DNA from: Halothermothrix sp.
GTDB lineage: Bacteria > Bacillota > Halanaerobiia > DY22613
DNA length: 49,565 bases
NCBI GenBank assembly: GCA_016841825.1
Contig: JAENYK010000023.1
Location: 1 to 49,565, forward strand
Direction of reading: 5' to 3'
Shown: one piece after another, positions 30,474 through 44,599 of the stretch
Numbering within the stretch: the stretch's first letter is position 1
Layout: each line of letters starts with the position of its first letter
Translations under genes and position numbers: made by a program
Notes under the pieces: model-generated
What the model saw: only the letters and a program-made list of their open reading frames with translations
Told to the model about the DNA's origin: nothing
Database searches by the model: none

Positions 30474-30507
30474 GATAGGATTTGCTAGCAACAATTCCTG
30501 AGCTTCG

Positions 30508-30595
30508 GGGCTTCAGATAGGGATTCAACCCCACCTGAAGTTGAACAAGGCAGCTCCAACTTATAGAAGTAGGAGTCATAGAACTTAGATATATT
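30508..30595 (+). repeat. Structured repeat, copy 1 (IS200/IS605 right-end / omega-RNA-like)
   Basis: Two hairpins. CTTCAG...GGG pairs with CCC...CTGAAG around ATTCAA. Then CTCCAACTT pairs with AAGTAGGAG around ATAG (one mismatch). A conserved tail TCATAGAAC-TAGATATA follows. Copy 2 at 43709-43798 is about 85 percent identical and keeps both hairpins. The second hairpin and following GGAGTCATAGAAC resemble the right end of TnpB-encoding IS605-type elements, where it forms part of the guide-RNA scaffold. No tnpB or tnpA frame is adjacent. Confidence 0.6.
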
Positions 30596-33845: not shown

Positions 33846-35156
33846 CTAATCTTCAAACACAGTTTGTTCGTGTATTTCAGTCTCTAAAGCTCGCAAAGAT
33901 TTTTCAACCAGGGCACGACGCAGTTTCTTCTCTTCAGTGCAATCCATTTTCGGATTGCCCAATGGATAAGGAATCGCGATAGCAGGGACGATTCTGTTCG
34001 CACCTACAGTTAAGGAGATTGGAACCACGGTAGCCACATGAACTACGGGGATACCTGCACGTTCAATCTCTTTTACCATCGTTGCACCGCAACGAGTACA
34101 GGTTCCTCAGGTACTGGTTAAAATAACTGCTTCAACACCATCGGCAACCAGATCTTTAGTAATGTCAGCTGCATATTTCTTAGCATTAGCAACAGAAGTA
34201 CCATTACCAACAGTTGCATACCAGTAATCGTGCAGAGTACCAATTTTTCCTTCTCCTACCATCTCTTTTACAACATCCAGAGGTACTACTCGATCTGCAT
34301 CCTGATTAGCATAAACCGGGTCATAACCACCATGAGCAGTTTCACTGTTATCCTCAGTAAATTCCAAAAGATCAGTTAATTTATATTTCCCATACTTAGA
34401 TGCACTGGAAGATTCAATCCGGTCAGGATTACCTTTAGGTACGATACCACCAGAGGTAACCAGAGCGACTTTAGCTTTGCTAATATCGGCAACCGGAGGA
34501 TTTGGAGCAACCCGATCAAAATCAGGCATTGGATACTCGGTCTTAAATTCTTCAGTTTTCAATTTTCTAATTAGCATTTCAACAGCTCTCAACGAACCTC
34601 GCTTTTCAGCGAAGAAATTCTTCCGAATACCCCGCGGAAAATAACCTGCTGCTTCAGGGCTACCAACTTCACCATCTGTCTCAATAAATTTCTTCACAAA
34701 ATTGATTATAGCAGGAACGGCCTTTCTCATACCAGCAGCGGAGTCAGCAGTTGGTATGATATATGCATATTTGGCGAAAATCTCAACACCTGGATTTTCT
34801 TCGTACATGGCTGTAATTACCGGAATACCCTTTTCAGCTGCAACTTCTGCTACATGACCACAAGCCATCCCGTAACGACCAGCGTTAAAAGCAGGGCCAG
34901 CAATCACCAGATCAGGCTTAACTTCATCCAGATAATTCTGAATGGCAGCTTTCGCCTCATCTAGATTTTCGTTGAAGTAACTATCACCACAGATTACTGT
35001 ATTAACAATCTCAGCAACTTCCTTCAAACCTTGATTCAAAGCCATCCCCGGTCCTACCTGGCCTTCTTTAATCATTGGAGATATATCAGCTTTATCTTCA
35101 CCACCAATTTGACCAAAGAATTGGTTCAAATAATGTAAGATCCGTCTTTTACTCAT
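33846..35156 (-). CDS. grdB: Selenocysteine-containing glycine reductase component B, GrdB subunit
   Basis: 436 residues when the in-frame UGA at 34109-34107 is read as selenocysteine (residue 350); simple frame-calling splits it in two. The context VEAVILTST-Sec-GTCTRCGATMVKEIE is the GrdB active site, with the conserved downstream CTRCG. GrdB is the substrate-specific subunit that attacks glycine (held by the GrdE pyruvoyl group) and passes a carboxymethyl group to GrdA. Twelve bases after the UGA is a perfect hairpin with a GGU loop, the expected bacterial SECIS element. AGGGGGGAAAACG precedes the ATG. It follows grdA by 35 bases. Confidence 0.96.
34080..34094 (-). promoter_or_regulatory. 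SECIS-like hairpin in grdB
   Basis: On the minus strand CGTTGC-GGT-GCAACG forms a perfect 6-bp stem with a GGU apical loop, starting 12 bases after the UGA. A GGU-containing apical loop at about this distance is the known requirement for SelB binding in bacterial selenoprotein mRNAs. Confidence 0.7.
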
Positions 35157-39232: not shown

Positions 39233-39490
39233 TCTGTCCTCGACCTGAGAGTTTACCATCATCTGTGCAAAAGATGAAAGTTGCTCCTTCGGTGTCACTG
39301 AATGACTTTCCAGAGTCCTGTCAAGATACGGTCCCTTTAACCTGAGAGCTTCTCTTCGAAACTAGCGTGAATCGAAGATTTCTCCTTCGGTGCTCGCTTT
39401 AAGCAAAATCATGAAGACTTATCTACTTTGCGCATCATGCGCCTCCAACCTACTTAAAACTTTCAGCAAGAACTCTCCCGCATCTATCAT
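39233..39490 (-). promoter_or_regulatory. Tandem glycine riboswitch (gcvT type) controlling the grd operon
   Basis: Read on the minus strand, two aptamers follow each other. Aptamer 1 has GCGGGAGAGTTC, GCACCGAAGGAG, CTCTCAGG and AAAGGGACCG. Aptamer 2 has TTGACAGGACTCTGGAAAG, CACCGAAGGAGCAA, CTCTCAGGTC and AGGACAGA. These are the conserved P1/P3 core sequences of the glycine riboswitch, and the very short linker is typical of cooperative tandem forms. Glycine riboswitches usually switch genes on. Here the substrate glycine induces its own reductase. Confidence 0.95.
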
Positions 39491-43624: not shown

Positions 43625-43653
43625 TTGAAATCGCTTCACATTAGTGCTATGAT
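43625..43653 (+). promoter_or_regulatory. Strong extended -10 promoter upstream of the structured repeat
   Basis: TTGAAA and TATGAT are separated by 17 bases, with TG one base before the -10 (extended -10). The predicted start near 43660 would transcribe the structured repeat and then possibly the ABC exporter operon. Confidence 0.7.
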
Positions 43654-43708
43654 ACAATCATATGCAGAAATATTTCCGGTGAACTCGTTCAACTAACGCT
43701 AAATCTCT

Positions 43709-43798
43709 GGGCTTCAGATGAGGATTCAACCCCACCTGAAGTAAAAACAAGGCAGCTCCCACTTATAAAAGTGGGAATCATAGAACATAGATATAATT
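43709..43798 (+). repeat. Structured repeat, copy 2 (IS200/IS605 right-end / omega-RNA-like)
   Basis: Same layout as copy 1: a CTTCAG...CTGAAG hairpin with loop ATTCAA, the spacer ACAAGGCAG, then CCCACTT-ATAA-AAGTGGG (a perfect 7-bp stem here) and the tail ATCATAGAAC-TAGATATAA. Differences from copy 1 mostly spare the stems; the CCCACTT/AAGTGGG stem is perfect here and has one mismatch in copy 1. Transcription is likely from the promoter at 43625. Confidence 0.6.
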
Positions 43799-43903
43799 TA
43801 TCTTGTTCAGTACATAGACACATATAATCTAAACACATCATTCTGCTGTCATTCAGAAACGCTACTATTATTAAGATTCACCAGACTGAAAGGAGGCTTT
43901 TAA

Positions 43904-44599
43904 ATGCTTAATATTATTAATCTCACGAAACAATATGATAAAACACTGGCTGTTGATAATATCAGTTTTGAAGTCAAATCCGGAGAGATTGCCGTACTTC
44001 TTGGACCTAATGGTGCAGGGAAGAGTACAACGATCAAAAGTATAGCTGGACTGCTCAGGTACACCGGTTCTATCGAAATCTCCAACTTCCCTAACAAAAG
44101 TCTGGAAGCCAAAAGGCTTTTTGGTTATGTTCCAGAAGTGCCAGCTTTGTATGATATGCTCACCGTTTACGAGCACTTAGAATTCATCGCTCATGCCTAT
44201 AATGTTTCCAATTATCAACAGAAAGCGGAAATTTTGCTCAAACGATTTGAACTGGACGATAAACGGGACAAGCTAGGCAAAGAGTTGTCCAAAGGTATGC
44301 AGCAAAAAGTCAGTATCTGCTGTGCTTTACTACCCGAACCTGAAGTCATCTTATTTGATGAGCCAATGATTGGTCTTGACCCAAAAGCTATCAAAGAGTT
44401 AAAAAAACTTCTTTTAGAGCTTAAAGAACAGGGTAAAACTGTAATTATCAGTACCCACATTATTGATAGTATTGAAGAGATTTGGGACAAAGTTCTTATT
44501 ATGAATAATGCTAAGATTGTTCTCGTCAAAACTCGCGAAGAACTGGCTCAAGAAGCCCAATCCCTTGAGGATATCTTCTTTAAAGTTACGGAGGGATAA
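43904..44599 (+). CDS. ABC transporter ATP-binding protein
   Basis: 231 residues. Walker A is LGPNGAGKSTTIKS (about residues 37-50), the Q-loop region GYVPEVPALYDMLTVYEHL, the ABC signature reads LSKGMQQKVSI, Walker B is PEVILFDEPMIGLDP, and the H-loop STHIIDS. The arrangement matches export-type (ABC-2) ATPases. AAAGGAGG precedes the ATG. The permease gene starts one base after this stop, so the pair is translationally coupled. Confidence 0.94.
   Translation: MLNIINLTKQYDKTLAVDNISFEVKSGEIAVLLGPNGAGKSTTIKSIAGLLRYTGSIEISNFPNKSLEAKRLFGYVPEVPALYDMLTVYEHLEFIAHAYNVSNYQQKAEILLKRFELDDKRDKLGKELSKGMQQKVSICCALLPEPEVILFDEPMIGLDPKAIKELKKLLLELKEQGKTVIISTHIIDSIEEIWDKVLIMNNAKIVLVKTREELAQEAQSLEDIFFKVTEG

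Follow-up and report, generated by a model that had tools for sequence, protein, structure and literature searches.

The window, by which we mean the whole 49,565-nt stretch of Halothermothrix sp. DNA analyzed here, carries two copies of a dispersed repeat on its minus strand. Copy A is of full length (43679–43790, left end at 43790 and right end at 43679, within a covariance model match to 43678–43797), while the right end of copy B (approximately 30498–30588, model match to 30475–30595 with 109 bits) is truncated or diverged. The genes nearest copy A are a Mn-catalase and a PF16962 ABC exporter pair; downstream of it are a ribosome-binding site and the start of the exporter, with the ABC transporter ATPase gene at 43904–44599 on the plus strand (PF00005). 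On the other side, a promoter-like sequence with an extended −10 element, TTGAAA-N17-TATGAT, is located at 43625–43653 on the plus strand, in unique flank outside the repeat. Elsewhere in the window, a glycine riboswitch (39319–39490, minus strand; RF00504, 49.5 bits) lies upstream of a glycine reductase cluster, which includes a GRDB-type selenoprotein gene (34107–35156, minus strand), directly preceded by a SECIS_4 element (34069–34106, minus strand).

A search of the genome with the window copy returned E-values of 3e-63 for the self match and of 1e-23 to 1e-33 for the listed relatives, far beyond chance, and at least 40 places were scored, all well below the chance level. It confirmed both copies that a sequence-only reading of the window had reported. 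A covariance model built from 31 copies raised their number in the source genome from these two to 84. The element is a real repeat, as that reading had held, but its size is not the proposed ~90 bp: aligned copies share a block of ~117 nt, corresponding to a unit of ~112 nt and a 5-nt target. Beyond both ends similarity vanishes, with the information per position falling from >1 bit inside the repeat to ~0.1 at the boundaries, and the flanks of the copies are unrelated, except in one trio from a duplicated region. The copies diverge from their consensus by 7.7% on average. At 112 nt, the unit is too short to encode a transposase, and it has imperfect palindromes near its termini but no terminal inverted repeats. 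The window and related copies matched no Rfam family at gathering score, and there was no match to the consensus in phages and plasmids, to a degenerate pattern for a 24-nt core in viral contigs, or to a core 29-mer in genome contigs.

After the 29-mer search had given nothing, we found the wider family through the pattern of its first hairpin (H1, GTGAACTCGTYCAGCTAARGCTG), which occurs in no fewer than 115 stretches from named genomes. Hosts include Desulfosporosinus, Desulfotomaculaceae, Desulfotruncus, Tepidibacillus, Paenibacillus mesophilus and a Dethiobacter MAG, among others, and one diverged copy comes from a family other than that of the source organism but within its class (G017). 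The open-licence papers searched contained no description of this repeat family, which seems to be undescribed and is wide-ranging.

Two further observations concern copies of this family. Many Desulfosporosinus copies contain an extra hairpin-rich block within the second hairpin (H2), in one orientation in L151, L211, L150 and L198 and reversed in L158, L196 and L207, which recalls the SMR-A elements of Haloquadratum, whose targets are PATE palindromes (PMC3119063). In addition, an upstream open reading frame often terminates with the TGA inside AGTGA, the start of the element (L145, L161, L172, L213, L217, L256), as if insertion beside a TAA-containing target had replaced the gene's stop codon.

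The sequence-only reading had recognized two hairpins. These are present, but the consensus forms three (minimum free energy −45.7, z-score −5.3), all on the minus strand in copy A: the right-end hairpin H1 (43684–43711), the middle hairpin H2 (43712–43741) and the left-end hairpin H3 (43756–43777). H1 is supported by the consensus fold and by covariation but is worn in copy A, which as a whole folds with a z-score of −3.0; H2 folds, with compensatory changes between families in seven of its pairs, and H3 is likewise supported by folding and covariation. Copy B folds poorly (z-score −1.7), having lost the H1 region and acquired an A–A mismatch in H3. The order H1-H2-H3 is kept in the relatives wherever parts are not deleted. 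Covariation, which had been named as a check on the element, is strong between families, where 94.8% of the pairs are maintained and 13 pairs changed on both sides, compared to 6.4 in shuffles and two to four in a control with slid partners. In contrast, it is absent among the copies of the source genome (92.6% paired, 92.6% in shuffles), whose substitution rate is the same, 6.8%, at paired and unpaired sites. Since covariation is seen between families but not among the source-genome copies, the alignments suggest that the hairpins mattered while the element spread and no longer did in the resident copies. Template-switch correction of palindromes could also yield compensatory changes in H2.

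To define the inserted DNA, we searched the joined flanks of 14 Desulfosporosinus copies in 15 genomes (as a single 5,600-nt string). Clear empty counterparts existed for three copies: L191 (compared with L266 and L269), L173 (with L279 and L288) and L164 (with L277); this evidence comes from Desulfosporosinus relatives only and not from the genome of the window. At these loci the insert is [GTGAAC...GAATTG]. In L173, the empty site CTA|ATTAATG becomes CTA[GTGAAC...GAATTG]ATTAATG, and in L164, CCA|ATAAACTG becomes, with one substitution, CCA[GTGAAC...GAATTG]TTAAACTG. In L191, the insert abuts ATCAAAA, with a discrepancy of 1–2 nt at the other junction. None of the three pairs of filled and empty sites shows a target duplication, and the restored reading frames at the joined flanks gave no clear sign of gene disruption. 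The pentamer ATNAA, which follows the insert on its 3′ side, is already present in all three empty sites and is therefore part of the host. By analogy with these sites, we set the boundaries of copy A such that the ATATA at 43791–43795 (TATAT on the minus strand) would be its host target and lie outside the inserted DNA; the ATATA of copy B (30589–30593, minus strand) was assigned on the same basis. The source-genome copies carry ATNTA, whose middle base likewise varies (53 ATATA, 5 ATCTA, 4 ATGTA), and in the other genomes we counted 30 ATAAA, 7 ATTAA, 7 ATCAA and 5 ATGAA.

Read on the minus strand, the pentamers of the three Desulfosporosinus sites are TTAAT, TTTAT and TTGAT (consensus TTNAT), the target of L191 being exactly TTGAT. 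ISDra2 inserts 3′ of TTGAT without duplication (PMC8612924). Because the position of the TTNAT pentamer matches this rule, we take the minus strand to be the transposon strand, with the left end at H3 and the right end at H1. The sequence-only reading had therefore seen the element in reverse: the transposon's right end lies 5′ on the plus strand (...GCTGAACGAGTTCAC on the minus strand), and the "fixed 3′ tail", TAGATATA, consists, judged by the relatives' empty sites, of the outermost left end together with host target.

The guides of IS200/IS605 elements sit 5′ of the palindrome (PMC8266576). On the minus strand, the left guide of the repeat is AAGA with TTNAT in most relatives and ATGA with TANAT in the source genome. 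The guide and target of IS608 pair according to an exact rule, and the shift alters guide and target together where this rule pairs them, although it is a single change identified by eye. At the right end, the guide GAAG agrees with TCAC in most copies, which is also the case for TnpB elements of relatives, but in the GAATCAG-type relatives (Paenibacillus, Tepidibacillus) the fit to TCAC is incomplete. As these fits were read by eye and without a chance estimate, we regard the apparent match of guide and target as supporting evidence only.

Neither tnpA nor tnpB adjoins the element, as had been noted from the sequence. The Y1 transposase genes of the source genome are all fragments, and besides two tnpB relics it has a single TnpB of intact length (378 aa, L009). 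The latter lies beside an internally deleted tnpA (L009/L012, G000 C22:430777–431988) and is thus a tnpB without its transposase. Its right end differs from that of the repeat (GAAT/TCAA, ending in TTCAA), and the repeat model did not match its locus (E-value 5.4), nor any of ~29 tnpB loci of relatives (best non-self E-value 0.24); a tnpB gene ending in the repeat, as the sequence-only reading had envisaged, was thus found neither in the source genome nor among the sampled loci. Tblastn searches with TnpA and TnpB of relatives around 115 related loci yielded no tnpA or tnpB except for one tnpA, 2–3 kb from its element. The Y1 genes of nine Desulfosporosinus genomes were not flanked by element ends, and the one IS200 copy that adjoins an element apparently does so by chance. 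An 845-bp element with the same ends (L259, G000 C38:419966–420811) was considered as an autonomous parent and rejected: it has unrelated DNA inside, with a 155-aa open reading frame, and resembles a copy that has been broken or interrupted. Overall, neither the source genome, nor the tnpB loci sampled from 40 relatives, nor the surroundings of the Y1 genes in nine Desulfosporosinus genomes yielded an autonomous element with matching ends. Many described PATEs, though not all, share their ends with such an element; for this family, the partner may exist elsewhere or be extinct.

The position of copy A upstream of the exporter had raised the possibility of a leader or riboregulator RNA driven by the promoter at 43625. 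The TTGAAA-17-TATGAT sequence exists, followed by the element, the ribosome-binding site and the exporter start, and if it works as a promoter, it would transcribe copy A within a 5′ UTR. However, the scan found two promoter-like sites, no excess over the 1.8 found in shuffles, and the flank with this one is outside the unit and shared by no other copy. The repeat also occurs behind, between and antisense to unrelated genes, not at a constant same-strand position upstream of related ones. Of 71 classified copies, the downstream gene is co-directional in 32, and the neighbor orientations are random (−,− 25; +,+ 20; +,− 14; −,+ 12), based on open reading frames and not on curated genes, so that single rows are unreliable; that of copy A took a spurious minus-strand frame instead of the exporter. 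Only 4 of 78 copies overlap an open reading frame of at least 100 aa. The orientation bias in GC skew is weak (mean −0.05, 31 of 78 positive) and we did not use it as evidence. Together with the worn first hairpin of copy A and the lack of structural constraint among the copies, this makes a leader highly unlikely; nothing points to a regulatory role of copy A, which in our reading came to lie by insertion between the exporter gene and what may be a promoter.

A family of trans-acting guide RNAs (omega-RNAs), whose transcribed copies would guide a distant TnpB, finds a potential partner in L009, and the minus-strand right end of the repeat, a hairpin followed by GAGTTCAC, resembles the right-end RNA (reRNA) of TnpB elements, such as L136, L137 and L139 of relatives, which end in GGTTCAC. 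Against it, the scaffolds are not similar, the family model matches no tnpB locus among those of relatives and L009, whose right end is different, no adjacent or cognate tnpB continues into the RNA, and Rfam gives no match. The bases after the presumed tail, which were to be compared with genomic or phage targets, are at the wrong end to be a guide, and the 20-nt flanks had no exact viral match. As mutations in the copies are equally frequent at paired and unpaired sites, without covariation within the genome, we consider this origin very improbable. Equal mutation of paired and unpaired sites, random orientation and the location of the promoter in unique flank thus render both leader and trans-guide function unlikely. 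It is also quite improbable that the repeat is REP/REPIN-like and moved by a RAYT (TnpA-REP) instead of an IS200/IS605 transposase: seven of nine Desulfosporosinus genomes do have at least one longer, RAYT-like Y1 gene (open frame of 185–322 aa), yet these lack flanking element ends, the usual GTAG guide of REPs is absent from the hairpin feet, no Y1 gene of the source genome, whatever its type, is intact, and the pentamer targeting fits IS200/IS605.

We conclude that the repeat is very probably a non-autonomous, transposase-less IS200/IS605-type element (PATE), first noticed from its reverse strand, since at the Desulfosporosinus sites it inserted without duplication beside TTNAT, which is the signature of this group. 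Its multi-copy dispersal, sharp ends and conserved hairpins, and the pre-existing pentamer in the empty sites of relatives, agree with this. The earlier idea of a solo IS remnant thus holds insofar as the element has IS200/IS605-type ends only, but it is a propagating non-autonomous family and not the worn end of a full tnpB element. We infer that a Y1 (HUH) transposase acting in trans would recognize the hairpins at the two ends, H1 on the right and H3 on the left, and that one DNA strand would be excised and pasted 3′ of a TTNAT-like pentamer, of which TANAT would be the variant in the source genome, without target duplication. The mover would since have been lost from this genome, leaving the resident copies as neutral fossils. 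Counting against a PATE are the missing autonomous partner, the 1–2 nt discrepancy in L191, the incomplete right guide of the GAATCAG-type relatives and the conserved internal hairpin, which PATEs do not usually have.

Like the PATEs described from Haloquadratum walsbyi (PMC3119063) and the PATE-like element of Halanaerobium hydrogeniformans (PMC7290912), the repeat has near-terminal palindromes but no terminal inverted repeats, causes no target duplication, is too short for a transposase and is present in high copy number in a genome whose IS200-type transposases are broken. It differs in forming a bacterial family that extends across several Firmicutes families, in having a middle hairpin that is conserved and covaries, and in lacking a detectable related autonomous IS605 element. 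With ISDra2 and IS608 it shares duplication-free insertion 3′ of a pentamer of TTNAT type (TTGAT for ISDra2) and, close to either end, a hairpin preceded on its 5′ side by a putative guide, but it has neither tnpA nor tnpB, and its target in the source genome is TANAT.

The absent mover and the conserved middle hairpin pose concrete questions about this family. A speculative answer, which we consider rather unlikely, is that H2 acts in its own right, either as RNA or in the form of single-stranded DNA, so that the family would not be a passive ends-only relic; an orphan element might thereby have been able to move between Firmicutes families although no IS matches it, for instance through the recruitment of a TnpB or of Y1 transposases unrelated to it. 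More generally, a repeat of hairpin and tail that resembles a guide-RNA scaffold can turn out to be a miniature element of IS200/IS605 type seen on its reverse strand, and its "tail" can be the host target.
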